Assembly: GCA_913055905.1 (NCBI GenBank)
Contig: CAJXLB010000011.1
Coordinates: 1-64,000 of the forward strand
Length of the DNA: 64,000 bases
Direction of reading: 5' to 3'
Source: an uncultured Winogradskyella sp.
GTDB lineage: Bacteria; Bacteroidota; Bacteroidia; Flavobacteriales; Flavobacteriaceae
The position numbers and the translations under genes are program-made. Every line of letters begins with the position of its first letter. The first letter of the stretch is position 1. This document shows positions 35,881 through 59,207 of the stretch, in pieces. The notes beneath the pieces are model-generated. The model saw only the letters and a program-made list of their open reading frames with translations. It was not told where the DNA came from and made no database searches.

Positions 35881-38800
35881 ATGAAAATAAAAATTCTCTA
35901 TCTGTGCGCATTGTTCTTCTCAATGATAATGCAGGGACAGACTGTTAATGTAAAAGGAACTGTTACAGAAGCTTCCTCGGGCTTACCACTACCCGGAGTA
36001 AATGTGGTTATCAAAAATACCACCAAAGGGGCTTCAACAGATTTTGATGGTAATTTTACCATCGAGGATGTAAGTTTAAACTCAATTTTAGTAGTGTCCT
36101 ACTTAGGTTTCCAAACACAGGAAATCAAAATAGTAGACGATAAACCGCTTTCAATCGCCTTGGTAGAAGATGCAGAAGCACTTAATGAAGTTGTAGTTAT
36201 AGGTTATGGCACACAAACAAAGAAAGAGGTAACAGGTGCCGTGTCGGTAGTTTCTAGTGAAACTATAGAAGAATTAAAACCAACTCGAGTGGAGCAGGCA
36301 CTTCAGGGTCAAGTTGCAGGTGTAAATATTACGTCCACTTCTGGTTCTCCAGGTTCAGCGTTAACCATTAATATTCGTGGTATTTCCACAAACGGAGATA
36401 ACCGTCCCTTAATACTCGTAGATGGTAACGTTATAGAGGATTTAAGTGTTTTAAACCCTAACGATATAGAAAGTGTTAACGTCTTAAAAGATGCGACTGC
36501 TGGTATTTATGGTGTACGTGCCGCCAATGGTGTTATTCTTATTAAGACCAAAACCGGTCGTAAAAACATGCCAACCACGGTTGAAATCAATGCGTGGGGT
36601 GGTGTTCAAGAGACCACGAGGAAATTACCAACACTTAACGCAACAGAATATGCCTTGTTGGCCAACGAAGCTTTTGCTGCTAACGGAGAGGCTCTGCCAT
36701 TTCCAGATGTCTCTGGTTTAGGTCAGGGAACTAATTGGCAGGATGAAGTTTTTGAAAGAGCTCCTATTTACAGTACTGCTGTGAGTATAAGAGGTGGTAC
36801 CGAGACTCAAACGTTTGCTTATGGCGCATCTATATTTTCTCAAGATGGTATAGTAGGTGGAAACAGAGCCAATTTTACACGACTCAATCAAAGTCTAAAT
36901 TATAGTTTGGACGTAACTGAAAATTTAAAATTCAATGCAGGAGTTATTTGGAATTACACCAACAGAAACAGATTAAATGAAGGCGGTATTGGTTCGGTAT
37001 TGTTTAATGCGGTCAATAATGCGCCAACCTTACCGGTAAGACAAAATGGTGGCTTCTCTATTTCTGAAGGTTTAGGTAATGAAGTAGTAAATCCTCTGCA
37101 ACAAATTCAAAATAGTTATAATAGGCAACACGTAGATAGAATAAGTGGTGTGGCTGGACTATCCTACGATTTTCTCGATTATTTCACAGCACAGGTAAAT
37201 TATCAATTTAATTATACGGAAGAAGGTATTAGAACATTCCTGCCAGAACAGTTTTATGGAAGCGGTAAGGTATTCAATATTTTCACGAGTCAATTAACCG
37301 AAAATGAAAATATTTTTAGGGATTACACCTTTGATGCTTTCCTAAAGTATCAGAGATCATTTAATGAGGTGCATAATTTAAGTGTGCTTCTCGGAACGTC
37401 AGTATTCAAGACTGAAGGTTTTTTCTCAGGATTTATTGGGTTTGATGTAGGCAATGATATTGCTAATGCTAGTTTGGATAATACCTCTAATGTTGAGAGT
37501 ATTTTTATAGGCCTACCACGTAATCCGTTTTTCGATTCTAGATTGCTTTCTTATTTCACTCGTATCCAATATGATTATAAAGGAAAATACCTGTTCAGTG
37601 CAGTATTAAGACGCGATGGGTCTTCCGCATTTGGTCCAGAGAATAAATTTGGTTATTTCCCGTCATTTTCTGCTGGTTGGGTAGCTTCGGATGAGTCCTT
37701 TCTGGAAAATAATTCATTTTTCGACTTCTTAAAGCTACGTGCATCTTATGGTATTTTAGGTAACGACAGAATACCAGCTTTTGCTTTTGTCAGTACCCTC
37801 GACGGTGAGGCAACCTATGTATTAGATGGTACACGAGCTTTTGGCCAAGCAACAGGAAGAATTGCGAATCCAGAAATACAGTGGGAACAGCAAAAAACGT
37901 TTGACATCGGTCTTGATGCCAGATTTTTGGACAATAAGTTCGATTTAACAATGGATTATTATATCCGTAGAACTGAAGATTTATTGGTATCTCCTCAAGT
38001 AAGCGGATTGCTAGGGCCAAGTGCGCCAGGTGCTTCTGCTCCTTTGGTTAACGCAGGGGTGATTGAAAATAAAGGATTTGAACTGGCCCTAGGGTACAAT
38101 GATTATATAGGTGACGACTTTAAAATATCTGCGCGGTACAACTTAACAACTATAGATAATGAGGTGATTTCGGTAAGTGATGGCGTAGAATTTTTGGTCG
38201 GAGGTGCTTTTGGGATTGGACAAGACCCACCGGCACGCATGGAGACAGGGTTCCCATTAGGTTACTTTAGAGGTTTCAAAACAGCTGGCATATTCCAAAA
38301 CCAAGCACAGGTTGAAAGTTTACCAACTATCAATGACAATGTAAGACCTGGAGACCTCATATTTGTTGATATTAACAACGATGGTGTCATAGATGATGAT
38401 GACCGTACAAATATCGGTAATCCTATACCCGATTTCACCATGGGCTTTAACTTGTCCTTTGAATATAAAAATTTCGATTTTGTAGCCTACGCGTTCGCTT
38501 CTATTGGTAATGAAATAGTAAGAAATTACGAGCGTAATAATCCATTAACCAATAGAACTACCTATTATTTAGATCGATGGAGAGGCGAAGGTACAAGCAA
38601 CTCATTTCCAAGAGTGACCACTGGAGCTAATTCCAACATTCTCTTTTCAGATTTTTATGTGGAAGATGGCTCATTCTTAAGAATGCAAAATATTACGTTA
38701 GGATACAGCTTGTCTGACAAGGCTTTGGAAAACAGCAAGTTAAGCAAGGTAAGATTTTATGCGGCTGTACAAAACTTATTTACATTAACTGAATATCAAG

Positions 38801-38907
38801 GATTTGACCCAGTTCTCTCATCTGGAGCTCCAATAGGTGGTGGAATAGATGGTGGTGGCTACCCAAATCCACGTCAATTCTTATTAGGTATGAATTTAAA
38901 ATTTTAA
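35881..38907 (+). CDS. susC: SusC/RagA-type TonB-dependent outer membrane transporter
   Basis: This 1008-residue protein has a signal peptide (1-20) and a carboxypeptidase-regulatory-like domain (about 23-95, GTVTEASSGLPLPGVNVVIK). A TonB box region and plug follow (about 100-220; EALNEVVVIGYGTQTKKE, ALQGQVAGVNI, LVDGNVIEDLSVLNPNDIES), then a barrel ending in aromatic LGMNLKF. It imports oligosaccharides across the outer membrane using TonB energy, with SusD as lid. susD starts 4 bases downstream. The surrounding enzymes indicate laminarin-derived beta-1,3-glucan as cargo. Substrate choice is inferred from context, not from this sequence. Confidence 0.95.
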   Translation: MKIKILYLCALFFSMIMQGQTVNVKGTVTEASSGLPLPGVNVVIKNTTKGASTDFDGNFTIEDVSLNSILVVSYLGFQTQEIKIVDDKPLSIALVEDAEALNEVVVIGYGTQTKKEVTGAVSVVSSETIEELKPTRVEQALQGQVAGVNITSTSGSPGSALTINIRGISTNGDNRPLILVDGNVIEDLSVLNPNDIESVNVLKDATAGIYGVRAANGVILIKTKTGRKNMPTTVEINAWGGVQETTRKLPTLNATEYALLANEAFAANGEALPFPDVSGLGQGTNWQDEVFERAPIYSTAVSIRGGTETQTFAYGASIFSQDGIVGGNRANFTRLNQSLNYSLDVTENLKFNAGVIWNYTNRNRLNEGGIGSVLFNAVNNAPTLPVRQNGGFSISEGLGNEVVNPLQQIQNSYNRQHVDRISGVAGLSYDFLDYFTAQVNYQFNYTEEGIRTFLPEQFYGSGKVFNIFTSQLTENENIFRDYTFDAFLKYQRSFNEVHNLSVLLGTSVFKTEGFFSGFIGFDVGNDIANASLDNTSNVESIFIGLPRNPFFDSRLLSYFTRIQYDYKGKYLFSAVLRRDGSSAFGPENKFGYFPSFSAGWVASDESFLENNSFFDFLKLRASYGILGNDRIPAFAFVSTLDGEATYVLDGTRAFGQATGRIANPEIQWEQQKTFDIGLDARFLDNKFDLTMDYYIRRTEDLLVSPQVSGLLGPSAPGASAPLVNAGVIENKGFELALGYNDYIGDDFKISARYNLTTIDNEVISVSDGVEFLVGGAFGIGQDPPARMETGFPLGYFRGFKTAGIFQNQAQVESLPTINDNVRPGDLIFVDINNDGVIDDDDRTNIGNPIPDFTMGFNLSFEYKNFDFVAYAFASIGNEIVRNYERNNPLTNRTTYYLDRWRGEGTSNSFPRVTTGANSNILFSDFYVEDGSFLRMQNITLGYSLSDKALENSKLSKVRFYAAVQNLFTLTEYQGFDPVLSSGAPIGGGIDGGGYPNPRQFLLGMNLKF

Positions 38908-38911
38908 GACA

Positions 38912-40378
38912 ATGATAAAGACAAAACACATATATATAATTTTGGCTATGGTTTTCATTGCCTCATGCAGTGATGACTTTGTAGATGTGGATCCACCGTT
39001 TGCAAATTCTGCAGATTACTTCAATTCAGAAGAAGATTACCAGAATGCACTTATTGGCGCTTATGATTTGTTGCAAACCACCTATATCAACGTTATGATT
39101 GGGGAAATTGCCTCAGACAACACCTTGTCCGGTGGCGAAAGTGCAACGGACGTTATTGGAATACAAGAGATTGATGAGATGCAGCATAACCCAGTAAATC
39201 AACAACTAAGAGATATTTGGGGCTGGATGTTTTCTGGTGTTAATAGAGCAAATTATATCATGCAGTATGAAGATAAAACACCTTTTCCAGGAAAAGAGAA
39301 TGTAATAGCGCAAACCCGTTTTTTAAGAGCGTATTATTACTTTGAATTGGTCAAATTCTTTGGTGATGTACCATTAGTAAGGGATCGTGTTGTCGAATTT
39401 GGAGATGAGCGTGATATTCCAAAAGCACCCAAGGAAGACGTCTATGCATTAATAGAGGAAGACTTAATTTATGCGGCTAACAATTTGCCACTTCAGCAAT
39501 CTGAAACCGGAAGAGCAACAAAAGGCGCTGCACAAGCGCTTTTAGGAAAGGCTTATCTCTATCAGGAAAAATATGCCGAAGCAGCTGACGTTTTGCAAGA
39601 GGTGATTAATTCTGGACAGTATGCCTTATTAGAGGATTACAGTACTATGTTTGAGAATAACAATGAGAATAATATCGAATCCGTTTTCGAAGTGCAATAT
39701 ACAGACGAAGAAGGAGCCGGTTTTGGTTGTTTGCAATGTAGTGAAGGTAATATCGCTGTTGGCTTTAATGGAATTAGAAACTACAGTGGTCCAGTATTTG
39801 GGTCTGGTTTTAGCTTTAACGTACCTACCCAGGATGTCGTTGATGCTTTTGAAGACGGAGATACAAGACTCGAAACAGCTATTTTGGATATTGAGGCCTG
39901 GGCAGAAGAAACAGGCGCTACTTATGCCATTGGGTATAAACATACAGGATATTACAATAGAAAATATATTGCCAGGCAAGGAGATGCGGATATTGGAGAT
40001 GCTAACTTAACTAATCCTAACAATTACAGAGCTATACGATACGCCGATGTGCTCTTAATGGCGGCAGAGGCTTTGGCTAGTCCAGAGGTTGGAAATGATT
40101 CACAAGCCTTGATTTACCTTAATCAAGTTAGGGAACGTGCTTTTGGAAGTACAGCCAATAATCTATCAGTAGGAGGAATTGGACTAAGAAACGCTATCCA
40201 ACAAGAACGCCGTGTAGAGCTCGTTGGAGAAGGGCACCGCTTCTTTGATTTGGTAAGAACAGGTGAAGCAGCCAATGCTATCGATGGTTTTCAAACCGGA
40301 AAAAATGAGGTATTCCCAATACCACTTATCGAAATAGAATTAGCTGGAAATCAGTGGGAGCAAAATCCAGGGTATTAA
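38912..40378 (+). CDS. susD: RagB/SusD family glycan-binding lipoprotein
   Basis: This 488-residue protein has a lipobox with cysteine (FIASCSDDF) followed by acidic residues, the lipoprotein export signal to the cell surface in Bacteroidota. SusD features are NSEEDYQNALIGAYDLLQ, the TPR-like helices LRAYYYFELVKFFGDVPLV, NQVRERAFG and the C-terminal QERRVELVGEGHRFFDLVRT. It caps SusC and captures the glycan. Tightly coupled to susC. Confidence 0.95.
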   Translation: MIKTKHIYIILAMVFIASCSDDFVDVDPPFANSADYFNSEEDYQNALIGAYDLLQTTYINVMIGEIASDNTLSGGESATDVIGIQEIDEMQHNPVNQQLRDIWGWMFSGVNRANYIMQYEDKTPFPGKENVIAQTRFLRAYYYFELVKFFGDVPLVRDRVVEFGDERDIPKAPKEDVYALIEEDLIYAANNLPLQQSETGRATKGAAQALLGKAYLYQEKYAEAADVLQEVINSGQYALLEDYSTMFENNNENNIESVFEVQYTDEEGAGFGCLQCSEGNIAVGFNGIRNYSGPVFGSGFSFNVPTQDVVDAFEDGDTRLETAILDIEAWAEETGATYAIGYKHTGYYNRKYIARQGDADIGDANLTNPNNYRAIRYADVLLMAAEALASPEVGNDSQALIYLNQVRERAFGSTANNLSVGGIGLRNAIQQERRVELVGEGHRFFDLVRTGEAANAIDGFQTGKNEVFPIPLIEIELAGNQWEQNPGY

Positions 40379-40388
40379 AAATAAAGTT

Positions 40389-42383
40389 ATGAAAAGAATA
40401 GGTTTTATAGTATTAGCATCAGTATTAACAGTGCTGATGGCCTGCTCGGAAGACGAGCGCGATATAGATTTTATTAATGATGTAGAAGCACCTTCAGACG
40501 TATCAATATTATTTGTGCCAACAACAGATAATAGTGGTTTGGTGACCTTAATTCCTAGTGGAACTGGAGCTTCCTTTTTCGATGTATTCTTTACCGAGAA
40601 TACGCAAAACCCAGTGAGACTTGGGGCCGGAGAAGTGACTCAAAATATTTATGAAGAAGGGACTTACACTGTTAAGACCATTGCAACTGGTGTTACAGGA
40701 AAACAGACAGTAGTTGAGCAAACGCTTAATGTGTCATTTATTCCTCCTCAGAATTTGGAGGTAAACATTGCCAACGATGGTGCAGTTTCCAATACAGTTC
40801 GTGTTACGGCAACAGCTGATTTCGGAATAAATTATGAAGTAGACTTTGGAGAGACTATAGGTGACGATAGTGACGTGGTTATGGCCAATATTGGTGACGA
40901 AATCGTGTATGAGTACGATGAACCTGGCCTCTACACCATAGTTGTTACTGCTTTTAGTGCAGCCATAGAGACAACGGAATTTATTATAGAGGATTTTGAG
41001 GTTACAGAGGTATTGGCACCAATTACGGCAGCACCAACACCAGCTGTACCTGCAGCTGACGTCATTGCTATTTATAGTGACTCGTATGATGTAATTACCA
41101 CCAACGAGTTTCCAACTGAGTGGTCCAACTCTGGTTTTGAAGAAATACAAATTGATGGAAATAATACTATTCAATACGGAAATCTTGCCTTTACAGGTAT
41201 TGTCACAGACTATAGTAATCCTACCGACTTATCCACAATGGAATTTGTACATTTCGATTATTGGACAGCCGATGCAACTACATTAGGATTTAAAATCGTA
41301 AATACAGCTTTAGATCCACCTCAAGAAGATATCGTGGAATTACAAGAAGTAGTGCAAGATCAATGGGTAAGTGTTGATATTCCATTGGACGATTATAATA
41401 TGGATCGTTCTCAAGTCACACAATTATTATTTGATACGCTAGGAAATGTCGCCACTGTATTTATAGATAACTTGTACTTCTACAGGGAATCAACATCGTT
41501 CTTCTTCAATGATGGGCTTGTCACTAACGGTAACTTCCAAGCAGGAAGCGATAATTGGATTGTTGGTGTTGATGATAATGCGCCAGCACCAGTAACCTCT
41601 CAAGCAGGAAATATTTTCTATAGCGTTGATGTAACCACCCCTGACCCTGGACAGCCATTCTTAGTGAATGTGAGTCAGAAATTAGAAATTATTGAAGGTG
41701 AGACTTATGAACTTTCATTCGAAGCATGGTCAAATGTTAACCGATCTATTATCGCAGGTATAGGTTTAAGCGGACCTCCTTTTTCAGCTACAGTCGAGAC
41801 AGTGAGTATTACGCCAGTAGTAACCAGATACACTTTGGAGTTGCCTGCTTCTGGATTTGGAGCCTTGGATGCCCGAATTTTATTTGACCTAAATGGTGAT
41901 GCAGGAATCGTTAACATAGATAATGTCTATCTAAGAAGAGTTCCTCCAAATGATTTAGTAACAAATGGGGATTTTGAAAATGGAAGTGAATTGTGGTTGG
42001 TAGGAGTAGATGACAACAGTTCTGCACCTACAGCGACCTTAAATGGTGACACCTTCTATTCGGTTGATGTTACTAGCCCAGATCCAGGTCAGCCATTTTT
42101 AGTAAACCTAAGTCAAAAACTTGAAATTATCGAGGGCGAAACATATACGCTAACATTTGACGCTTGGTCTAATGTTAATAGATCAATTATTGCAGGTATT
42201 GGATTAAGTGGTGGCAGTTTTGCTAATAATAGCCAGACTGTAAACATAACCCCAGAAATTACAACCTACTCGCTAACATTGACCGCTGACGGTTTCGGTG
42301 CTCCAGATGCAAGAGTGCTATTCGACAATGCAGCTGAGGCAGGAGTTGTGAATATAGATAACGTAACCTTGGAGCTCAATTAA
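40389..42383 (+). CDS. Multi-domain surface glycan-binding lipoprotein with duplicated CBM
   Basis: This 664-residue protein has a lipobox (VLMACSEDE, surface-export acidic residues) and one or two Ig/PKD-like beta-sandwich domains (about 35-210). A module of about 155 residues (about 214-372, opening VPAADVIAIYSDSY) recurs in two other proteins of this locus. Two tandem copies of a CBM4/9-like domain follow (377-522 and 523-664). There is no catalytic motif. Its place directly after SusD is the usual SusE/SGBP position, so it probably binds laminarin at the cell surface. The specific CBM family is inferred from fold pattern only. Confidence 0.82.
   Translation: MKRIGFIVLASVLTVLMACSEDERDIDFINDVEAPSDVSILFVPTTDNSGLVTLIPSGTGASFFDVFFTENTQNPVRLGAGEVTQNIYEEGTYTVKTIATGVTGKQTVVEQTLNVSFIPPQNLEVNIANDGAVSNTVRVTATADFGINYEVDFGETIGDDSDVVMANIGDEIVYEYDEPGLYTIVVTAFSAAIETTEFIIEDFEVTEVLAPITAAPTPAVPAADVIAIYSDSYDVITTNEFPTEWSNSGFEEIQIDGNNTIQYGNLAFTGIVTDYSNPTDLSTMEFVHFDYWTADATTLGFKIVNTALDPPQEDIVELQEVVQDQWVSVDIPLDDYNMDRSQVTQLLFDTLGNVATVFIDNLYFYRESTSFFFNDGLVTNGNFQAGSDNWIVGVDDNAPAPVTSQAGNIFYSVDVTTPDPGQPFLVNVSQKLEIIEGETYELSFEAWSNVNRSIIAGIGLSGPPFSATVETVSITPVVTRYTLELPASGFGALDARILFDLNGDAGIVNIDNVYLRRVPPNDLVTNGDFENGSELWLVGVDDNSSAPTATLNGDTFYSVDVTSPDPGQPFLVNLSQKLEIIEGETYTLTFDAWSNVNRSIIAGIGLSGGSFANNSQTVNITPEITTYSLTLTADGFGAPDARVLFDNAAEAGVVNIDNVTLELN
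41517..42380 (+). repeat. Tandem duplication of a CBM-encoding segment
   Basis: Two consecutive copies, 41517-41954 and 41955-42380, encode matching blocks: LVTNG(N/D)F, then D(T/S)PDPGQPFLVN, SQKLEIIEGETY, (E/D)AWSNVNRSIIAGIGLSG, and finally VNIDNV. Protein identity is roughly two-thirds by eye, with greater divergence at the ends, so it is an established rather than a very recent duplication. Confidence 0.85.
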
Positions 42384-42429
42384 GTTTAAATTTTTAGTTG
42401 TTTAGATGACATTATATAAAAATGGAAAA

Positions 42430-43365
42430 ATGAAAAAATTAAAGAATATATTTTCAATACTTTTAGTTCTTGCGGTTACGACGAGTTGCCAAGAAGAAGA
42501 CCAGGAATTTGGACCAGTGTTGGCGCCTACTAACATCAATATTGAATTAACATACTTAGACGATATTGACGATGATGGCGAATTGGATGAGGTCGATGCA
42601 CCAGGATTAGGCAGTGGCTTTGTTAAGTTTAGTGCCACAGCAGACAATGCCATTTCTTTTGTTTTTGAAATTGACAATATTAGAACTACAGCAGTAAATG
42701 GTGAGGCTACTCTCATTTTTTCAACACTTGGCCTAAACACCTACAATGCCACAGTTATTGCCTACGGTACTGGTGGAGCCTCTTCAAGTCAAACCATTCA
42801 GCTAGATGTTTTGTCAACTTTTGAAGCGCCAGCAGAATTAATTACCATGCTTACTAATGATAGTGAGCGTACTTGGCGTATAAAAGCCGAAGTGCCTGGC
42901 CATTTTGGTCTGGGACCAATAGGAGGGATCTTCAACGAATTCTTTTCCGCACCTGCATTTGATAAAGAGGGTGTAGGAATGTATGATGATCGCTATGTAT
43001 TTAATGTAGATGGTACCTTTACTCACATCACGGATAGTACAAATGATAGTCCAGATGTAAATCCAGAGGGTACTGTATTCGGCAGGGAAAACCTTATAAA
43101 CGAACTTAACGGTCCAGGAAGTGGTACACCTAATGGTGCCGATATCGAAAATTATCCATATTCGGACTACACGGAAAGTTGGTTTATCACGGGTCCTGGT
43201 GGTGTAGAAACCTTAAATTTAACAGGAATTGGGTTCTTAGGTTATTACATTGGAGGTGATCATACTTATACCATTGAAAGCAGATCTACCAATGAAATGG
43301 TAGTAAGGTCCACGGATGGCAATGGCGAATTTGATTGGGGTTTTATATTAATTGCTGATGAATAA
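42430..43365 (+). CDS. PUL-associated surface lipoprotein of unclassified type
   Basis: I take the ATG at 42430, which places a signal peptide and lipobox (LAVTTSCQEEDQ) at the start. A longer frame from 42406 would precede it with a polar leader. Of 311 residues, about 25-135 look like an Ig/PKD-like sandwich (FVKFSATADNAISFVFEID). The rest (about 140-311) is a beta-rich domain with TWRIKAEVPGHFGLG, YDDRYVFNVDGTFTHI and HTYTIESRSTNEMVVRSTDG, similar in pattern to lipocalin-like lipoprotein domains found at PUL surfaces. No enzyme motif is seen. A glycan-binding role is inferred from position only. Confidence 0.75.
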   Translation: MKKLKNIFSILLVLAVTTSCQEEDQEFGPVLAPTNINIELTYLDDIDDDGELDEVDAPGLGSGFVKFSATADNAISFVFEIDNIRTTAVNGEATLIFSTLGLNTYNATVIAYGTGGASSSQTIQLDVLSTFEAPAELITMLTNDSERTWRIKAEVPGHFGLGPIGGIFNEFFSAPAFDKEGVGMYDDRYVFNVDGTFTHITDSTNDSPDVNPEGTVFGRENLINELNGPGSGTPNGADIENYPYSDYTESWFITGPGGVETLNLTGIGFLGYYIGGDHTYTIESRSTNEMVVRSTDGNGEFDWGFILIADE

Positions 43366-43620: not shown

Positions 43621-46600
43621 ATGAGAAAATACCTATTTGCGCTAACCTTTATGTTTGGCTGTTCATTAGTCTTTTCCCAATCCAATGTACGGGTGTCAAA
43701 AGACGCTAGTGGTATGACATTACTAGTTGATGGCAAAGAATTTATGATTAACGGTATGAACTGGGATTACATTCCAATTGGTACCAATACAGTTGATGCC
43801 AAATTTTGGGAAAAATCAGATGATGTCATCAAGGCAGGTTTAGACACTGAAATGTCCCTATTGAAAAATATGGGCGTAAATGTAATTAGACAATATACTG
43901 GCGTTCCAGCAAGGTGGATCCGATATATTTATGAGAATTACGGCATTTACACTATGTTAAATCATTCTTTTGGCCGATATGGTTTAACCTTAAATGGAGT
44001 ATGGACACCTGTTACTATATACGACGACCCTGTTACCGAGGAATTTTTAATGCAAGAGGTAACCCAATTGGTAGAGGAGTACAAAGGAACGCCTGGCTTG
44101 TTGTTTTATCTTTTAGGTAATGAAAATAATTATGGTTTGTTCTGGCAAGGAGCGGAAACAGAAGATTTTCCAGATGACGAAGATCAAAAGGCCTATATCG
44201 GTGAAAAACGCGGTCGTCCTATGTATAGACTTATGAACGAAGCGGCAAAGGCCATGAAGGCTATAGACCCCTCACGTCCTGTGGCTTTGTGTAACGGTGA
44301 TGTGTTGTTTATAGATATTATAGCAGAAGAGTGTCCAGATATTGATATTTATGGTACCAATACCTATCGTGGAGTTTCTTTTACAGATATGTTTGATACC
44401 GTGAAGAATAAATTGGATATGGCTTTGGTTTTTACAGAATTTGGCTCCGACGCCTATAACGCAAAAGAAAATAAGGAAGACCAAAAAATGCAAGCCTATT
44501 ACAATTTAGGAAACTGGAAAGAAATCTATCAACATGCCGCAGGGTTAGGAAAAACAGGCATATCAATTGGTGGATTTACGTTCCAATTCAGTGACGGTTG
44601 GTGGAAATATGGTTTTGATGATCGCGAAAATGCAGACAGACATGATAACAATGCCTCATGGACCAATGGAGGTTACGACTGGGATTTAGCGCCTGGACAA
44701 AACAACATGAACGAGGAGTGGTTTGGTATTTGTGCCAAGGGTCCTACTAACGAAAGAGGACTTTACGACCTATATCCAAGAGCAGCATATTACGCATTAA
44801 AAGAGGCACATCAACTCGATCCCTATGCAGATGGCATGACAGCAGAGTTTGTTGAGAATTACTTTAACAGTATCAACTTAATGGATGCCGTACTTAGAGC
44901 AAGAGGAGATAAAGCTGCTTTAGAAGGTAGTGGCGCCGAGAAGCTAAGAATTAGCCAATTACAAGCAAAGTTTACAACCTTTAATACAGGAGGAACACTT
45001 ATTACAACGCCAGACAATCCTGATGCCACACAACCAGACGCTGTTCCTAATCAACTTGGATTTGATCATATGCAGTCATTTTTCGTTGGTGTTGAAGGAA
45101 ATCCAGCAGCTAATTTAAGAGCGGAGGTTGTTTTAAACGTTGTTGGTAACGTTGCACAAAATCCTATCGATGAGATTTTTTACGAGACCATCACAAGACG
45201 CATAATAGTTGATGAAGATACAGATGCCGTTGTTAATCAAGGAGATCGCGTAAATCTTTATCAAGCCGAATTCGAGTGGAATGCTAAAGATTTCGATGTA
45301 AGAGGATTTTATCGTACAGGCCATTATCATTGGCAATATGAAGGAGATTTCTTCGGTTTGTATCCAGAAGCTAACTATGGTCCTAATCTGGACATTTATG
45401 GCGGTGAAATTTTAGGTGCTGAAATCGACGGTAAAGGAGATTTAGAAGGGTTAAAAGCTGCCATTGGTCCACAATTGTGGTGGGGAGCCAACCCAACCAT
45501 GTTATTTAAGTATCAGAAAAAATTAGGCCATTTTGATGTTGCAGCGATTTATCATCGCGATTTTGAAACAGATTTACAATTTGATGAGTCTGGTCGTCGT
45601 GTTTTAGACCAGAACCAAGTACGAAGTGGTATTATTCCAGCTTGGCCCACGGAACGCGCTTCGATTGCTATTAATCGGGAATTTGGAAAATTCGGTGTAA
45701 CCCTTGGAGGTATTTGGGCCGGTAGTCCGCTAAACGGCAGTTCTTTCCAAGATGTGGAGAATGGTGTTGTCTTTGTAGATAAAGTAGAAAGCAAAGATAA
45801 CTTCGGAGGAAAAGTAAAAGTTACTTATGAAGGCGGTAAATTCAATTGGTATGGCCAAGGCTCGTATATGGGACTTGTGGCCAACGGTGGTTTTGATGCT
45901 ACTCAAACTTTTACAGGCTGGAAACTTAAGGATTCAGGAAGTGGAAACATGACTAATTTCTTGACTGGTTTCACTTATTCTTTCGATAATTTCCAAATCG
46001 CACCAAATTTTATGTGGCAAAAGCCATTGGTTGATCCAATGCCAAATAATGGGCCAGCACCAGGTCGATTAAGAAATGTTATTGACGATCCGTTTGCCGT
46101 TAGGGATTGGAACAGGGAAACTACTGCAGGTGAAATCTTATTCACTTATGATCCTACACCGGGAACGTGGATGTACCAATGGGATAATGACAGATCAGAG
46201 GATGCCAAGTTCGCTATGAATTTAGGTTTTGTCTACAGACATTTACCAACAACCATGGATGCACATATTGGTTTCTTGGCCACTCGTGAATTTTTTGCTT
46301 TCCCAACATCGGTTCCGGCACAGGACTTATGGGAAGTGCATTCCAGAATGGTGTCTAAATTATCGCCAGATTTAGGAATTATTGGTAACTTCTACTACGG
46401 AAATGGACAGGCCAATGGTGATAGCGATAGAACAATTTACCGTTTTGGTGGCGATATAAGAGCCATATACAAAAAGATGAAATTAGAGACTCATTTAAAA
46501 ATTAACGATTGGGGACCATTCGATTATCACAGGGATTTTAACTTAACGTTCCCAGTGCAGTTTATGATGGACATTTCAACCTCATTTGGGAAACCAGACT

Positions 46601-46794
46601 GGTTTATTCTTCCCAATACCACTATTGGTTTAAGAGGAACATGGCGATCCTTAGATGAATTCTCTAACAGATACGCGCCAACATTTGTCCCAGCTGACAC
46701 CTTTGCTACAGATCCAGTATTAACTCCTGTAGGATTCCCTGATGGTTCGGAATGGGAAATAAGAACGTACGTGCACATTAACATTGGTAGATAA
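43621..46794 (+). CDS. Clan GH-A-like glycosidase fused to a porin-like beta-barrel region
   Basis: This 1057-residue protein has a type I-like signal peptide (about 1-20, ...SLVFSQ) and no usable lipobox. The N-terminal half (about 22-400) is a TIM-barrel glycosidase: FMINGMNWDYIPIGTN opening, acid/base candidate E168 in LLGNENNYG, nucleophile candidate E273 in VFTEFGSDAY. From about 440 to the end it is beta-strand-rich with alternating aromatic strands and glycine turns (GVTLGGIWAGSPLNG; MNLGFVYRHLP; FNWYGQGSYMGL), like an outer-membrane barrel, ending IRTYVHINIGR. It sits in a laminarin locus, so a beta-glucan substrate is likely. The family could not be assigned; GH2-like, GH5-like or an uncharacterised family are possible. 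Confidence 0.78.
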   Translation: MRKYLFALTFMFGCSLVFSQSNVRVSKDASGMTLLVDGKEFMINGMNWDYIPIGTNTVDAKFWEKSDDVIKAGLDTEMSLLKNMGVNVIRQYTGVPARWIRYIYENYGIYTMLNHSFGRYGLTLNGVWTPVTIYDDPVTEEFLMQEVTQLVEEYKGTPGLLFYLLGNENNYGLFWQGAETEDFPDDEDQKAYIGEKRGRPMYRLMNEAAKAMKAIDPSRPVALCNGDVLFIDIIAEECPDIDIYGTNTYRGVSFTDMFDTVKNKLDMALVFTEFGSDAYNAKENKEDQKMQAYYNLGNWKEIYQHAAGLGKTGISIGGFTFQFSDGWWKYGFDDRENADRHDNNASWTNGGYDWDLAPGQNNMNEEWFGICAKGPTNERGLYDLYPRAAYYALKEAHQLDPYADGMTAEFVENYFNSINLMDAVLRARGDKAALEGSGAEKLRISQLQAKFTTFNTGGTLITTPDNPDATQPDAVPNQLGFDHMQSFFVGVEGNPAANLRAEVVLNVVGNVAQNPIDEIFYETITRRIIVDEDTDAVVNQGDRVNLYQAEFEWNAKDFDVRGFYRTGHYHWQYEGDFFGLYPEANYGPNLDIYGGEILGAEIDGKGDLEGLKAAIGPQLWWGANPTMLFKYQKKLGHFDVAAIYHRDFETDLQFDESGRRVLDQNQVRSGIIPAWPTERASIAINREFGKFGVTLGGIWAGSPLNGSSFQDVENGVVFVDKVESKDNFGGKVKVTYEGGKFNWYGQGSYMGLVANGGFDATQTFTGWKLKDSGSGNMTNFLTGFTYSFDNFQIAPNFMWQKPLVDPMPNNGPAPGRLRNVIDDPFAVRDWNRETTAGEILFTYDPTPGTWMYQWDNDRSEDAKFAMNLGFVYRHLPTTMDAHIGFLATREFFAFPTSVPAQDLWEVHSRMVSKLSPDLGIIGNFYYGNGQANGDSDRTIYRFGGDIRAIYKKMKLETHLKINDWGPFDYHRDFNLTFPVQFMMDISTSFGKPDWFILPNTTIGLRGTWRSLDEFSNRYAPTFVPADTFATDPVLTPVGFPDGSEWEIRTYVHINIGR

Positions 46795-46798
46795 AAAA

Positions 46799-48274
46799 AT
46801 GCAAATGATGAAAAATATAAATTACAAAATAGGTAGAACCACAATCGTATTGGGATTATTATTAATCTTCAATTTAGGTTGTGAAAGAGACCTTACGGAT
46901 GAAGCTGTCTTAGCAACGTTTCCTACTACAGCAGAGATATATACCGATAACCCTGTTGGTCTAACAGACGAGTTCTTTATTTCTTTTGATCCAGCTGTTG
47001 GTGCTAATCCTGAGGCTTTCGGTACAGATGATAACGAGTCTTATGAAGGAACCTCTTCCATACGCATAGACGTTCCTGGACCAAACGACCCAAATGGGAC
47101 GTTTGCCGGCTGTATATTTAGAGACCGTGGTGAAGGAAGAAATTTAACGGGTTACGACGCCTTAACGTTTTGGGCAAAAGGAAGTACCACTGGGGTTTTA
47201 GGAGAAGTTGGTTTTGGTGTCGATTTCCTTGAAAATAAATTTCCTGTGAATCGTGCGAATATTCAATTATCTACAGATTGGAGAAAATATGTCATTCCAA
47301 TTCCTAATCCAGAAAAATTGGTTCAGGAAAGAGGCATGTTTTTAATTGCTGTGGGATCCTTCGATGTGTTGGGCAACGATGACCCAGCACTGGCAGATTC
47401 TTTTAGCGACAATTCTGGTTGGATTGTTTGGTTGGATGAAATTAAATTTGAACGTCTCGGAACTACGCTGACGGTGAATGCAGAAATATTGGATGGACAA
47501 AACCTTGTTCAGGAATCCTTTTCAAATACCACTACGACTATTACGGGCTTGAGTCAAACGGTTAACCTAGCAACTGGTGAAAATGTAACAGTTGGCGTAG
47601 CACCAACTTACTTTGATTTTAATTCATCAAATCCTGCAGTAGCAACAGTTGATGAGAATGGTGTTGTTAATGTCGTTGGACAATCTGGCACTACTACGAT
47701 TACCGCTGTTCTTGGTAATAATCAAGCTCAAGGCTCGTTGGAGATAACGGCACTGGGAGATTTTCCTTTGGCACCCGTACCAGACGACCCGGCCGCCAAT
47801 GTTCTTTCTATTTTTAGTGATTCCTATACAGATGTTGTGGATGCTAATTTTACACCTGGATTTGGAGGGTCCACGACACAAGCTTCAGTATTAAGTATTG
47901 GCGGAGAGGAATTTGTAACCTATGAAAATAACAACTTCACGGGTATCATGTTCGATAATAATCCAATAGATGGTTCTGCTATGTCGTTTTTACATGTTGA
48001 TATTTTTGCACCTGACGCTTCTACTCAAGTAGAATTTCAAATTAGGGACATAGGAAGTAACCAGGAGATAGAAACAAATGAATTTACCGGTTTCCCCACG
48101 GGAGATGATGTAGATTATAGAGTAACACTCAATGGACTAACACCAAATGAATGGAATTCTATAGACATACCGCTAGTTGGAAATTTAACAACTCAAAGAA
48201 ACAATCTCGGAGCTATAATATTAGTTGGTGGTCCAAGCTTTATTTTGGATAACATCTACTTCTTTACCGAATAA
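46799..48274 (+). CDS. Lipoprotein with CBM-like and Big2-like domains
   Basis: I use the ATG at 46799, 4 bases after the previous stop; other possible starts are 46805 and 46808. The product is about 491 residues with a lipobox (LIFNLGCERD). A galactose-binding-like domain covers about 45-225 (SYEGTSSIRIDVPG; YDALTFWAKG; WIVWLDEIKFE). A Big2-like Ig domain covers about 255-315 (SNPAVATVDENGVVNVVGQSG). A C-terminal module of about 155 residues begins PDDPAANVLSIFSDSY and is related to the middle domain of the 40389 protein. It has no catalytic motif. It probably binds glucan at the cell surface and may tether enzymes. Confidence 0.8.
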   Translation: MQMMKNINYKIGRTTIVLGLLLIFNLGCERDLTDEAVLATFPTTAEIYTDNPVGLTDEFFISFDPAVGANPEAFGTDDNESYEGTSSIRIDVPGPNDPNGTFAGCIFRDRGEGRNLTGYDALTFWAKGSTTGVLGEVGFGVDFLENKFPVNRANIQLSTDWRKYVIPIPNPEKLVQERGMFLIAVGSFDVLGNDDPALADSFSDNSGWIVWLDEIKFERLGTTLTVNAEILDGQNLVQESFSNTTTTITGLSQTVNLATGENVTVGVAPTYFDFNSSNPAVATVDENGVVNVVGQSGTTTITAVLGNNQAQGSLEITALGDFPLAPVPDDPAANVLSIFSDSYTDVVDANFTPGFGGSTTQASVLSIGGEEFVTYENNNFTGIMFDNNPIDGSAMSFLHVDIFAPDASTQVEFQIRDIGSNQEIETNEFTGFPTGDDVDYRVTLNGLTPNEWNSIDIPLVGNLTTQRNNLGAIILVGGPSFILDNIYFFTE

Positions 48275-48297
48275 AAAGAAAAAAATTGAACTATAAA

Positions 48298-49161
48298 ATG
48301 AAGCAAATGAAGATTTTAAAATCAATACTCGCATGCGCTGTGTTATTAGCTGGTACTTTGTTAATAACAAATTGTGAGGTGGATGAGACCCAGACCGTCA
48401 CAAATTTTGAAAACCTCGTCATGGCGGATGAATTTGATGTCGATGGCGCTCCTGACCCAACCCTTTGGACATACGATATTGGCGATGGATCGGCAGAAGG
48501 TATTCCAGGTTGGGGCAATAATGAATTGCAATATTATACAGACAGACCCGAAAATGTTAAAGTAGAAAACGGACTGCTTGTTATCACGGCAAGAGAAGAG
48601 GCCTTCGATGGAAGTTCCTATACCTCCGCCAGGATTACAACACAAAATTTATTCGAGCAACAATATGGTCGATTTGAAGCGCGAATTAGAATGCCACTTG
48701 GTAAAGGCATTTGGCCAGCGTTCTGGTTGCTAGGTAATGATTGCGACATCAATCCATGGCCACAGTGTGGTGAAATTGATGTTATGGAATATCTAGGGGA
48801 CGCACCAACCATCGTTTTCGGTAGTGCCCATGGTCCAGGATATAACGCAGGTGATTCCATCTCAAAAGAATACGAGTTGGAGAACGATCGTTTTGATACA
48901 GGATTCCATGTATTTGGAATAGAGTGGGGTCCAGATTATATCAATTACTACGTTGATGACGAATTGTACCAACAAATAACCCCAGAAACAACTGCTGAAG
49001 AGGCTGTTGATAATGTTCCTAATCCTGGAGAATGGGTTTTCAATCGCCCATTTTACATTATTCTGAACATAGCAGTGGGTGGCAACTTGCCAGGCGCACC
49101 AAATGAAGATACCCAATTTCCACAACGAATGTATGTGGATTATGTTAGGGTGTATAACTAA
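48298..49161 (+). CDS. GH16 laminarinase (endo-beta-1,3-glucanase) lipoprotein
   Basis: I use the ATG at 48298; the frame can also open at TTG 48286. The 287-residue protein has a lipoprotein signal (LLITNCEVDE) and one GH16 domain. Catalytic residues are in the uninterrupted GEIDVMEYLG: nucleophile E159, D161, acid/base E164. Other GH16 laminarinase marks are WGNNELQYYT, RFEARIRMPLGKGIWPAFWLLG, VFGSAHGPGY and FHVFGIEWGPDYINYYVDD. The E-x-D-x-x-E spacing with the extra methionine is the laminarinase form. It should cut internal beta-1,3 bonds of laminarin at the surface. Confidence 0.95.
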   Translation: MKQMKILKSILACAVLLAGTLLITNCEVDETQTVTNFENLVMADEFDVDGAPDPTLWTYDIGDGSAEGIPGWGNNELQYYTDRPENVKVENGLLVITAREEAFDGSSYTSARITTQNLFEQQYGRFEARIRMPLGKGIWPAFWLLGNDCDINPWPQCGEIDVMEYLGDAPTIVFGSAHGPGYNAGDSISKEYELENDRFDTGFHVFGIEWGPDYINYYVDDELYQQITPETTAEEAVDNVPNPGEWVFNRPFYIILNIAVGGNLPGAPNEDTQFPQRMYVDYVRVYN

Positions 49162-49173
49162 AAATAAGACAAC

Positions 49174-49995
49174 ATGATAGCTTTAAAAAATAAAATTAGC
49201 ATAGTATTCGGCTTAATCATGGCCTTGATTATGGTCTCTTGTGATGGCAAGGAAGAAACTGAAACGTTTAATTTAGAGGCAAGGTTTATAAGTGATGTTC
49301 AGGGCAGAACGATTAATTTTACCAATGTTTCTAATGATGCAACAAGTTACCTTTGGGATTTTGATAATGGTACAACGTCTTCGGTTATCGACCCTGTCGT
49401 TGAATTTGAAAACGGCACCTATACGGTAACCTTAACTGCTTTTGACGGTAGAGGGAATTCAGCAAGTTTTAGTCAGACCTTTGATATTGACTGTGAAACA
49501 GATGAGAATATAGATCCGGCTAACGGTAATCTCAATTGGACGTTCTTAACTGCATCTCCAGCAACAACGTTTGATGCCTTTGGGAACACAGGAGGAGGTA
49601 TAGTACAAAATCCTGTTGAAGATGCAGTAAATTCAAGTTGTAATGTACAGCAATTCGTAAAAATACCAGGATGTTTTACGTTTGCAGGTTTAGGTAAAGA
49701 GTTAAATACAGCGCTGGATTTTAACGATCCGGACGCGAGTAAAGTCTTTACAATGAAAGTACTAGCCGAGACTCAGGTCACTGAAGTAACATTAAGACTG
49801 GAGTTTATGCCTTTCCCAAATGTAGATCCGGCCGTAGACCGTGTTGCAACAATCACAGAAGTGGGAGAGTGGCAAGAGCTTACCTTCGATTTTACGGGCG
49901 TAACAGGAACATTTAAGAGTATGATTATCTATTTTGAGAGAAACGCACCTTGCGATGGCGATGTCTATTATTTTGATGATATAATTCAGCAATAA
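49174..49995 (+). CDS. PKD-domain lipoprotein with C-terminal CBM-like domain
   Basis: This 273-residue protein has a lipobox (LIMVSCDGKEE) and a PKD domain (about 33-108; SYLWDFDNGTTSS and NGTYTVTLTAFD are diagnostic). A C-terminal beta-sandwich follows (about 120-273; FTMKVLAETQVTEVTLRLEF; VGEWQELTFDFTG; VYYFDDIIQ) with the look of a carbohydrate-binding fold. It has no enzyme motif. It resembles the small surface glycan-binding proteins of laminarin PULs. It lies 12 bases after the GH16 gene. Confidence 0.82.
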   Translation: MIALKNKISIVFGLIMALIMVSCDGKEETETFNLEARFISDVQGRTINFTNVSNDATSYLWDFDNGTTSSVIDPVVEFENGTYTVTLTAFDGRGNSASFSQTFDIDCETDENIDPANGNLNWTFLTASPATTFDAFGNTGGGIVQNPVEDAVNSSCNVQQFVKIPGCFTFAGLGKELNTALDFNDPDASKVFTMKVLAETQVTEVTLRLEFMPFPNVDPAVDRVATITEVGEWQELTFDFTGVTGTFKSMIIYFERNAPCDGDVYYFDDIIQQ

Positions 49996-50093: not shown

Positions 50094-53000
50094 ATGGTTG
50101 CTACTAACCAAGATACCAAATCAAAACAAAAGGAAGTAACTTTATCTAAGGTAAAGTTAGATAACAAGGCGTATTTTAAAATTGCGAATCACGATAAGAT
50201 GCGACCGTTCTTTATGAGCATTGTTAGTGACTCTAATCACTGGATGTTCATTTCAAGTAATGGTGGCCTTACCGCAGGACGCAAAAATGCAGAGTATGCA
50301 CTATTCCCCTACTATTCTGACGATAAGATCACCGAATCTGCTGAAATAACTGGAGCAAAATCCATATTTCAGGTAAAACGAAAAGGAGAAACGTATATAT
50401 GGGAACCTTTTTCTATTCGTTTTCAAGATAAATACAAGATCAAGCGAAACTTGTATAAAAGCATATACGGCAATTCCATAGTTTTTGAGGAAGTAAACCT
50501 TGATTTACAGCTAACCTTCAAATATGAATGGTCTTCTAGCAACCTATACGGATTTGTAAAAACATCCACACTTTCCAATCAAGCAGAAGATGCGGTGGAA
50601 GTGAATATTCTAGATGGTATTCAAAATGTGTTGCCATTTGGCGTGAGTAGTGCTCTTCAAAATGCCAGCAGTAATTTGGTAGATGCCTACAAACGCACAG
50701 AATTAGTAAAAGATTCTGGAATAGGAATCTTTGCCTTAAGTGCTATCATTGTTGACAAGGCAGAGCCAAGCGAGGCCCTCAAGGCCAATATAGCGTGGTC
50801 ACTTGGTTTGGAGTCTCCCAAGTATCTATTGTCGTCACTTCAGCTTAAGGATTTTAGGGCATTCAAGGATATAGAACAAGAAACAGACATTAAAGCTGAG
50901 AAAGGTGGTTACTTCGTAAACAAAACAATCACCTTAGCTTCAGGAGCTCAAAAGAAATGGTACATCGTTACCAACGTGAATCAAGACAAATCGGATATTG
51001 TAAGCCTTTCGCAGGCTATACAAAAAGATGACGAGCTCGAACATAAACTACTGGATAACGTGGCATTGGGCACGCAAAAACTTATAGCCCTTAATGCCGC
51101 ATCAGATGGACTTCAGTTAACATCAGATAACTTAAGAGACACACGCCATTTTTCCAATACGCTATTCAATATTATGCGTGGTGGTATTTTCGATGATGGC
51201 TACACCATTGAAACATGGGATTTTAGAAAATATATAAAAGAGGCTAATAAAGATGTTTCAATTAGGCAAGCCAACCTTTTGAACAGTCTTAATGACAAAA
51301 TAACCTTGTCGGAGTTAAAGGAAATTGCCAATACATCGCAAGATGAAGATTTTTGCAGGTTGGCATTGGAGTATATGCCATTGAAATTTAGTCGCAGACA
51401 CGGAGATCCAAGTCGACCTTGGAACAAATTTTCCATTAATACCAGAAGTGAGGTCGATGGGTCAAAGATTCTGGATTACGAAGGTAACTGGAGAGATATT
51501 TTCCAAAATTGGGAGGCCTTGGTGCATTCTTATCCAGAGTACATCGAGAACATGATTCACAAATTCTTAAACGCCTCTACGTTTGATGGTTATAATCCTT
51601 ACCGAGTTACCAAAGGAGGTTTTGATTGGGAGACTATAGAGCCAGACGACCCTTGGTCTTATATAGGGTATTGGGGCGACCACCAAATTATTTATCTTCA
51701 AAAATTCTTGGAATTTATCCAAAATCATGAACCAGGTAAGTTAGAGAGCTTCTTTACAAGAGATATATTCGTTTATGCCAATGTGCCTTATCGCATTAAA
51801 TCCTATGAAGCGATTGTTCAAAATCCAAAGGATACAATAGAATTTGACGAAGAATCCGATCGTAAGATAAGAGCTAAACGTAACGCTATAGGTGCTGATG
51901 GTGCTTTGTTATGCAATGCAAAAGACGAAGTAGTCAGAGCCAACTTTATCGAAAAGATTCTAGCGACCACCTTGGCGAAGCTTTCCAACTTTATTCCCGA
52001 AGCAGGAATTTGGATGAATACGCAACGTCCAGAATGGAACGACGCGAACAATGCACTCGTTGGTAATGGCGTATCTATGGTCACGCTTTATTACTTAAGA
52101 CGATTTTTAAAGTTTTTTGAACACATATTTGACCAAGCGTCTGTTAACGAAGTATTGGTGTCAAAGGAAATAGCTGACTTTTTTAGTGAGGTTAAAGAAA
52201 CCTACAGTTCTAATGAGGGACTTTTAGCATCTGCAATTAGTGATAAAGACAGAAAGCTGATGATGGATGCTTTAGGAAAAGCAGGAAGTACATATAGAGA
52301 CCGTGTCTATTCGAGTGCCTTTTCTGGAGAGAGGGAAACAATTACATTTTCAGAACTGAAAAATTTTGTGGCATCTGCACTAAAACATTTAGAACATGCC
52401 ATAAAAGCCAACAAGCGCGATGATGATATGTATCACGCTTATAATCTTATTACAATTAACGAAGATAATACGGTGTCTCTCTCCTACTTAGATGAGATGC
52501 TAGAAGGTCAAGTGGCCGTTTTAAGTTCGGGCTATTTAAGTTCTAAGGAGAATCTAAAGGTATTAGATGGACTGAAACACAGTAGTCTGTTTAGGCCAGA
52601 CCAATACAGCTATATCTTGTATCCCAATAAGGAACTAAAAGGCTTTATGGAGCGTAATAATGTTCCTCAATCAGCTGTCCAAGATTCAGAATTGTTACAA
52701 AAGCTGTTAGAAGATGGCAATACTCAATTGATTAAACAAGATATCAATGGCGGCTATCACTTTAATGGTAATTTTAAGAATGCAGAAGACGTTAAAGCTG
52801 CCTTAAATGACTTGGAGGAGACGAGCTACAAAAATTTAGTTACAGAAGATAGAAGAAAAGTTCTAAGGATATTTGAGCAAGTGTTCAACCACAAGGCTTT
52901 TACGGGCCGTTCTGGCACCTTCTATGGTTACGAAGGATTAGGCTCAATCTATTGGCATATGGTGTCTAAACTTCAACTGGCAGTGCTTGAATGTTGTTTA

Positions 53001-53552
53001 AAAGCGATTCACGATAGTGAAGATGAGGTTGTTGTAGGGAAGCTGTTAGAGCATTATTATGAAATTAATGAAGGTATTGGCGTGCATAAATCGCCACAGC
53101 TTTATGGGGCCTTTCCAACAGACCCATATTCCCATACACCATTTGGCAAGGGGGCTCAACAACCAGGTATGACGGGACAGGTTAAGGAAGATATTTTATC
53201 TAGGTTTGGAGAGCTTGGTGTTTTTGTAAATGATGGGCAACTATATTTTGATCCTTGTATGTTGCGACGAGAAGAGTTTTTGTCTCAAGCCATGACCTTC
53301 AAATATGTTGATGTTGCCGGGAAACAGGAAACTATCCAGCTCCAGCCAAAACAATTGGCATTTACATATTGTCAAGTGCCAGTGATTTATGAGGTTTCTA
53401 ACCACAATGGACTTGAAGTGTCACTAGAAGATAATTCAACTCAAAAGTTCGACAAACTAACGTTAAACAAAAATCTTAGTTCATCTGTGTTTGAAAGGAA
53501 AAATGAGGTCAAACATATTAAGGTAACAATTGAAAAAAGTTATTTAAAATAA
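50094..53552 (+). CDS. GH149-like beta-1,3-oligoglucan phosphorylase
   Basis: This 1152-residue protein has no signal peptide and is therefore cytoplasmic. It resembles the GH94-related phosphorylases. An N-terminal beta-sandwich (about 30-300) includes HWMFISSNGGLTAGR. A helical barrel follows with general-acid candidate D650 in RPEWNDANN, which parallels the WND motif of cellobiose phosphorylases. The later segments NHKAFTGRSGTFYGYEGLGS and HKSPQLYGAFPTDPYSHTPFGKGAQQPGMTGQ (as the phosphate-site region, about residues 945-1055) complete it. The length of about 1,150 residues fits GH149 rather than GH94 (about 800). It would convert beta-1,3-glucan oligosaccharides plus phosphate to glucose-1-phosphate. 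GH161 is an alternative. Confidence 0.82.
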   Translation: MVATNQDTKSKQKEVTLSKVKLDNKAYFKIANHDKMRPFFMSIVSDSNHWMFISSNGGLTAGRKNAEYALFPYYSDDKITESAEITGAKSIFQVKRKGETYIWEPFSIRFQDKYKIKRNLYKSIYGNSIVFEEVNLDLQLTFKYEWSSSNLYGFVKTSTLSNQAEDAVEVNILDGIQNVLPFGVSSALQNASSNLVDAYKRTELVKDSGIGIFALSAIIVDKAEPSEALKANIAWSLGLESPKYLLSSLQLKDFRAFKDIEQETDIKAEKGGYFVNKTITLASGAQKKWYIVTNVNQDKSDIVSLSQAIQKDDELEHKLLDNVALGTQKLIALNAASDGLQLTSDNLRDTRHFSNTLFNIMRGGIFDDGYTIETWDFRKYIKEANKDVSIRQANLLNSLNDKITLSELKEIANTSQDEDFCRLALEYMPLKFSRRHGDPSRPWNKFSINTRSEVDGSKILDYEGNWRDIFQNWEALVHSYPEYIENMIHKFLNASTFDGYNPYRVTKGGFDWETIEPDDPWSYIGYWGDHQIIYLQKFLEFIQNHEPGKLESFFTRDIFVYANVPYRIKSYEAIVQNPKDTIEFDEESDRKIRAKRNAIGADGALLCNAKDEVVRANFIEKILATTLAKLSNFIPEAGIWMNTQRPEWNDANNALVGNGVSMVTLYYLRRFLKFFEHIFDQASVNEVLVSKEIADFFSEVKETYSSNEGLLASAISDKDRKLMMDALGKAGSTYRDRVYSSAFSGERETITFSELKNFVASALKHLEHAIKANKRDDDMYHAYNLITINEDNTVSLSYLDEMLEGQVAVLSSGYLSSKENLKVLDGLKHSSLFRPDQYSYILYPNKELKGFMERNNVPQSAVQDSELLQKLLEDGNTQLIKQDINGGYHFNGNFKNAEDVKAALNDLEETSYKNLVTEDRRKVLRIFEQVFNHKAFTGRSGTFYGYEGLGSIYWHMVSKLQLAVLECCLKAIHDSEDEVVVGKLLEHYYEINEGIGVHKSPQLYGAFPTDPYSHTPFGKGAQQPGMTGQVKEDILSRFGELGVFVNDGQLYFDPCMLRREEFLSQAMTFKYVDVAGKQETIQLQPKQLAFTYCQVPVIYEVSNHNGLEVSLEDNSTQKFDKLTLNKNLSSSVFERKNEVKHIKVTIEKSYLK

Positions 53553-54848: not shown

Positions 54849-54873
54849 CGTAAAGCTCAAAAAGTAAAGACAA

Positions 54874-56190: not shown

Positions 56191-56202
56191 AAGTAAACTT
56201 TG

Positions 56203-59132: not shown

Positions 59133-59207
59133 ATAATAGAATTAAGAAATTTATTGCAATTAGAGAGGGATATGATTAAAATTGCAAAGACTAAAATTTA
59201 ACTAACT

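Follow-up and report, generated by a model that had tools for sequence, protein, structure and literature searches.

A conserved fusion of a GH158-like glycosidase and a predicted outer-membrane beta-barrel in laminarin utilization loci of Bacteroidota

We analysed a stretch of 64,000 nucleotides from an uncultured Winogradskyella sp. (the window), in which a single open frame of 1057 amino acids (43621–46794, + strand) encodes a signal peptide, a GH-A glycosidase, a linker and a predicted outer-membrane beta-barrel. Full-length fusions were present in 80 of 80 kept loci, the best 80 of 520 relatives found in a genome scan, and the architecture is real and conserved and, as far as our literature searches show, undescribed. 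We favour, with slightly more confidence than doubt, the reading that the protein is a conserved enzyme-pore of laminarin loci, in which a plug-less barrel would import beta-glucan oligosaccharides to a tethered periplasmic enzyme. Marine bacteria draw much of their carbon from laminarin, and SusC/SusD is the usual explanation for how Bacteroidota take it up; if the barrel does import glucan, some laminarin uptake escapes surveys in which SusC/SusD expression serves as the measure.

The two halves of the fusion

A signal peptide was recognised by eye at residues 1–19 (ending LVFS, followed by Q; 43621–43677, +). Since a lipobox pattern was present in only 5 of 119 pooled fusion ORFs, most relatives of the fusion are not lipoproteins. 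A GH158-like (beta/alpha)8 glycosidase domain (residues 22–410; 44850 is its last base, from 43684, +) is followed by a linker that was modelled as short helices, partly at low confidence (residues 411–441; 44851–44943, +), and by the predicted 24-strand barrel, assigned from a structure model and structure searches (residues 442–1057; 44944–46791, +). The sole Pfam match was to Glyco_hydro_2_C (PF02836; 26.7 bits, cut-off 21, stretch 34–304), with none in the last 600 residues; NCBIfam gave a weak beta-galactosidase match and nothing else, and a single-sequence PDB search with the whole protein returned chance matches only. Structure prediction supported the claim, made earlier in a sequence-only reading, that a TIM-barrel glycosidase is covalently joined here to an outer-membrane beta-barrel, and the observation of such a fusion is confirmed. 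Both glutamates which that reading had named as catalytic, E168 (44122–44124, +; predicted acid/base, after N167) and E273 (44437–44439, +; predicted nucleophile, in TEFG), were invariant in an alignment of 81 sequences.

The enzyme half is a clan GH-A TIM barrel whose nearest relatives by fold were GH158 endo-beta-1,3-glucanases (BuGH158, PDB 6PAL; GH158(Pro), PDB 9ORO), at 18–21% identity in the structure alignments. By sequence profile, GH158 and GH2 were about equally near (two GH158 chains at E 0.0015 and 0.0029; a beta-galactosidase at E 0.0012). GH2 enzymes carry N-terminal sugar-binding and sandwich domains ahead of the TIM barrel. The GH2 TIM-barrel model was matched above its cut-off, but Pfam found no GH2-type N-terminal domain in the fusion, where the TIM-barrel match begins at residue 34 and leaves no room for one. 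With GH158 the fusion shares the GH-A (beta/alpha)8 barrel, an N-E acid/base after strand 4, a glutamate nucleophile after strand 7 and an occurrence in beta-1,3-glucan loci; in the profile alignment to GH158(Pro), E168 falls on LGNE and E273 on TEFG, both stretches being weak on their own. In BuGH158, however, a C-terminal Ig-like domain packs on the TIM barrel, according to the available part of PMC7157763, and in the fusion this domain is replaced by the linker and the predicted membrane barrel. Because one defining feature of each family is missing, filing the enzyme half under GH2 or GH158 was rejected, and, in line with the previous judgement, we could not assign it to a GH family.

The AlphaFold2 model of the C-terminal half contained 24 long antiparallel strands at moderate confidence (24 of the 28 modelled strand elements were counted). 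The strands are joined by short turns (mean 4.9) on the chain-entry side and by long loops (mean 24) opposite. No shuffle out of 2000 reached the strand alternation of this half. Two structure searches with it listed 50 matches each, all of them membrane beta-barrels, 24-strand ushers included; Foldseek TM-scores to any single barrel were low, and a PDB profile search with the barrel found no match. The modelled half shows the traits that define an outer-membrane barrel: its long amphipathic strands are even in number and run antiparallel as a meander, the turns being short and the outer loops long. We regard the predicted fold as strong; a description of this half as porin-like had preceded the model. 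A TonB-dependent transporter reading was rejected for lack of a plug: the window's SusC matched models of all three kinds searched (Plug, CarboxypepD_reg and SusC), and the fusion matched none of them.

Short turns on the chain-entry side and long loops opposite suggest that the enzyme half and the C-terminus lie on the short-turn, presumably periplasmic, side, at the pore exit. The glycosidase had been placed permanently at an outer-membrane pore, coupling cleavage with passage; its covalent joining to the predicted barrel stands, and the strand and loop pattern corrects its position to the probably periplasmic exit, where such a coupling would take place. Conservation was about equal in the two halves (barrel 0.81, enzyme 0.84). 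Within the barrel, the polar strand face was more conserved than the apolar face (0.848 vs 0.777), a comparison in which the polar face was picked by hydrophobicity and only the higher conservation is informative. Outer loops 3, 4 and 11 were nearly invariant (0.96, 0.99 and 0.97) and aromatic-rich, loop 3 spanning residues 567–595 (45319–45405, +; values are mean majority-residue fractions). Such conservation of the polar face and the loops would be expected if they formed a docking site or a path specific for a sugar.

These features weigh on an alternative, which we consider unlikely, that the barrel has no sugar pore and merely exports the glycosidase and anchors it at the cell surface, as in an autotransporter. 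Classical (type Va) autotransporters have a 12-strand C-terminal translocator, against 24 strands in our model, in which moreover the chain enters on the short-turn side. The polar face and several outer loops are about as conserved as the enzyme, which is more than an anchor needs, and the barrel is absent together with a lipoprotein of carbohydrate-binding look (described below). For surface display speak the order of the parts, with the enzyme at the N-terminus, the barrel at the C-terminus and helices directly preceding its first strand, and the description of BuGH158 as a predicted cell-surface enzyme in the available part of PMC7157763.

The beta-1,3-glucan locus

The fusion lies within a PUL that begins, on the + strand, with a regulator (32821–35643; Reg_prop, Y_Y_Y and LuxR-type HTH by Pfam), a SusC-like TonB-dependent transporter (35881–38907; Pfam and NCBIfam), a SusD-like lipoprotein (38912–40378), a CBM4-type protein that is a probable surface glycan-binding protein (40389–42383; CBM_4_9, with a PKD match that was not significant) and a 319-aa lipoprotein with an acidic mature start (42406–43365). 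Downstream of the fusion, also on the + strand, follow a lipoprotein that we call Big496 and propose as the partner of the barrel (46784–48274; a conserved N-terminal domain, a Big-like domain and a C-terminal domain), a GH16 lipoprotein with an acidic mature start, predicted to be a surface endo-glucanase (48286–49161), a PKD-domain lipoprotein (49174–49995), a beta-1,3-oligoglucan phosphorylase in which no signal peptide was seen and which we take to be GH149 (50094–53552), two tandem GH17 lipoproteins (53562–56190), the second below Pfam's cut-off, a GH30 lipoprotein (56200–57690) and, as separate genes, an MFS sugar transporter and a third GH17 (57702–60125). The PUL also holds a protein bearing a type IX sorting tail and, after it, LacI. 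The phosphorylase matched PDB 6hq6, a bacterial beta-1,3-oligosaccharide phosphorylase, at 1689.7 bits over residues 4–1151. With a GH16, three GH17 (one of them below the cut-off), a GH30 and a GH149, the glucan setting assigned from sequence is upheld, and is predicted to be that of a beta-1,3-glucan PUL.

Big496 followed the fusion in 79 of the 80 loci and GH16 was present in 77, the exceptions being on loci of 6.8–10.6 kb. A regulator match was found upstream of the fusion in 73 of 80 loci, and none in the fetched DNA of 7. Between regulator and fusion, SusC and SusD were present in 19 of 80 loci; in 53 the regulator lay 158–547 bases from the fusion with no ORF of 150 aa between them, and in one a gap of 2.1 kb likewise held no ORF of 150 aa. 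A position beside SusC/SusD, as first described, is therefore true of the window but not of these 53 loci, where the fusion comes directly after the regulator. Sixty loci extended about 10 kb to either side of the fusion; SusC was matched in 20 of them, which counts against our preferred reading, and in 40 it was not, an absence that holds for the locus only, as the same genome may carry SusC elsewhere. SusC had no match in 56 of the 80 loci, and these contained 14 unassigned ORFs of at least 700 aa; Pfam found no SusC in 10 of these (all except those of L042, L053, L054 and L055), and one of the 10, in L051, was a TonB-receptor-like protein of another type.

Distribution and barrel-less forms

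The kept fusions came from Winogradskyella, Muricauda/Allomuricauda/Flagellimonas, Kordia, Algibacter and other groups. A phylum sample covered 395 genomes of Bacteroidota, among them that of the window, and the barrel profile matched 35 (33 complete or nearly so, 2 fragments). All 33 near-complete barrels were fused, in frames of 1028–1084 aa (one with an internal stop) spanning 11 families by the labels assigned in the sample; no free barrel, without an enzyme, was found among them. The enzyme profile matched 43 of the 395 genomes strongly (E below 1e-150) and 4 weakly, and the 43 comprised the 33 fusions, a copy in G487 that is broken, and the enzyme without a barrel in nine genomes (364–480 aa per frame, one cut by a contig end). 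Distribution was patchy, with the full fusion in 8 of 246 genomes sampled from the order. Broken copies were seen on G031 C164 (L025; frame change and stop) and on G487 C53 (several breaks) and are either pseudogenes or sequencing errors. A further frame of 1092 aa (L117, on G129 C15, 1–3279, − strand) held a distantly related glycosidase domain between repeat-like parts, with no barrel seen by eye, and represents another architecture.

An enzyme-domain tree of 56 rows required four changes to account for the nine barrel-less ones, which did not form one clade (AU p 7e-5); this suggests that barrel-less forms arose at least four times. We speak of loss of the barrel rather than gain because these rows are nested in four places; the root lies between very long branches (length 5 each). 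In G386 (L169, from position 2025 on) a barrel-less enzyme is followed by a barrel remnant of 55 residues, probably a recent loss.

Within the genus of the window, 22 of 36 genomes carried the full fusion, 9 a lipoprotein, 1 a fusion fragment and 4 neither, and none carried both. The lipoprotein (L027–L030, L182–L186; protein or locus viewed in 7 of the 9, the other two taken by match and frame length) is a GH158-like enzyme of about 350 aa, 24–26% identical to the enzyme half. All five of its loci viewed at 20 kb had the order SusD, CBM4-type protein, lipoprotein, GH149, GH17, lipoprotein enzyme, GH30 and MFS, with SusC ahead of SusD in the two where the region reaches that far, and none of the five 20-kb regions contained the fusion, Big496, GH16 or the window-type PKD gene. 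This PUL is that of the window minus the fusion-Big496-GH16-PKD cassette, and the lipoprotein enzyme stands where the window has its second GH17. The cassette thus has the look of a module that can be exchanged, and the pathway looks as if it needs the enzyme half in one form or other.

That free lipoprotein, between GH17 and GH30 in the same operon in 5 of 5 loci viewed, and the barrel-less forms in at least four lineages would both agree with the barrel being a plug-less sugar porin or receptor fused by happenstance to an ordinary periplasmic endo-glucanase, so that tethering brings little. The lack of any free barrel among the 33 near-complete cases and the retention of the fusion in 11 families of the phylum sample tell against this, and we hold it to be as improbable as mere surface display. 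A row of beta-sandwich CBMs in place of the barrel would suit the all-beta, aromatic-rich sequence and the low TM-scores to any one barrel, but is very improbable and was rejected on the membrane-barrel matches of both structure searches and the meander of 24 long strands, whose alternation no shuffle reached; stacked sandwiches did not appear in the predicted structure. That the fusion arose by chance, or by faulty assembly, in a single genome has a negligible likelihood: nothing spoke for it, and it is refuted by conservation of the fusion across the 80 kept loci and the 33 near-complete barrels.

Big496, the proposed route and related systems

All 12 fused genomes examined carried Big496 at near full length. 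None of the 9 barrel-less genomes did when searched whole, and two of them had only partial matches (within residues 203–495) in other proteins. The four independent barrel/Big496 comparisons all agreed (p 0.125; four cannot reach significance). The N-terminal part of Big496 was conserved directly after the lipid-bearing cysteine, with C-E-R invariant in 17 sequences, and its C-terminal domain was of two types by eye, a pattern that might fit a docking part and an exchangeable glycan-binding part. We propose Big496 as the partner of the barrel because of its joint absence with the barrel and this pattern of conserved N-terminal and variable C-terminal parts. A PDB profile search matched its Big-like stretches (teneurin-like protein, E 4e-11, best stretch 232–306), and its N-terminal domain matched a chain, presumably CBM30, at E 0.085, too weak to use. 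Other large frames, such as one of 977 aa in G506, contained tandem matches to the C-terminal domain.

In Bacteroidota, an acidic mature start marks lipoproteins for surface export. Among ORFs with a recognised lipobox, acidic starts were found in 21 of 21 SusD, 83 of 86 GH16 and 75 of 103 Big496 (28 neutral, 0 basic), and were scarce in GH17a (8/35), GH17b (1/8) and GH30 (9/39), the rest being neutral or basic. This difference supports a surface location for GH16 and Big496 and an inside location for GH17 and GH30. Start charges of the enzyme's lipoprotein relatives were 3, −1, 1 and 1, more like the inside group, and those of the barrel-less orthologues were ambiguous.

In the enzyme-pore reading that we prefer, surface GH16 would cut beta-1,3-glucan and Big496 would hold the pieces at the 24-strand, plug-less barrel. 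Oligosaccharides crossing the barrel would arrive at its periplasmic mouth, where the retaining, GH158-like glycosidase is covalently tethered; cutting there would make entry effectively one-way, and periplasmic GH17 and GH30, the MFS carrier and the cytoplasmic GH149 phosphorylase would complete breakdown. A transport role is plausible, and the fusion may import and cut laminarin in one step. If so, an outer-membrane channel can be covalently coupled to the enzyme that consumes its cargo, which raises the question of whether hydrolysis at the exit can drive uptake without TonB. More tentatively, and we would sooner doubt than believe it, barrel, enzyme and Big496 could form a SusC/SusD-independent, plug-less importer of beta-glucan in which hydrolysis at the periplasmic mouth replaces TonB energy, a second kind of glycan importer in Bacteroidota that would suffice alone in loci without SusC/SusD.

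Like the SusC/SusD importers, the fusion has a predicted outer-membrane barrel and, in the same PUL, a gene for a proposed lipoprotein partner. In contrast, it has no plug or SusC match, its proposed partner is Big496 rather than SusD, and it carries an N-terminal enzyme; prediction supports the earlier remark that such a fusion is not a standard PUL part. Patatin-like type Vd proteins (PlpD) also join an N-terminal enzyme to a C-terminal outer-membrane barrel, but they are lipases with a POTRA domain and a 16-strand barrel, and not a sugar system. According to the available part of PMC6246565, Formosa FORMB_24740 is an MFS-GH17 fusion that was, to its authors' knowledge, undescribed in other bacteria; it too joins a transporter and a CAZyme in one chain within a laminarin PUL, but with a 12-helix MFS carrier and GH17 and no outer-membrane barrel. 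The sections of PMC13188888 at hand place a 'GH2 beta-glycosidase' beside GH16, GH149, GH17 and GH30 in Muricauda laminarin PULs, with a LuxR-type first gene in many clusters. Its contig SGIU01000001.1 (strain 176CP4-71) is our locus L044, which carries the fusion, so that this 'GH2 beta-glycosidase' is very likely the fusion gene; in the main text as available, 'porin' and 'outer membrane' occur zero times and nothing refers to a membrane barrel. The accessible portion of PMC10108472 reports laminarin PULs in which an unclassified 'GH0' stands next to GH149, the GH0 being highly expressed in one bloom MAG, and one laminarin PUL without susCD; the GH0 may be either the fusion or its lipoprotein relative. 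Four laminarin PUL variants were defined in PMC6298971, and the portions of that paper, PMC11345257 and PMC9723794 that were available mention no such enzyme-barrel protein; among the open-licence papers listed by our searches, none described a comparable fusion of an enzyme with an outer-membrane barrel.

Two further features of the window's PUL were observed. The protein with the type IX secretion tail near its end (60368–62023) has carbohydrate-binding-like repeats by eye and is possibly a secreted glucan-binding protein. The MFS transporter and third GH17 are separate genes in the window and are fused in Formosa (PMC6246565) and in bloom MAGs (PMC10108472), according to the available parts of both sources.
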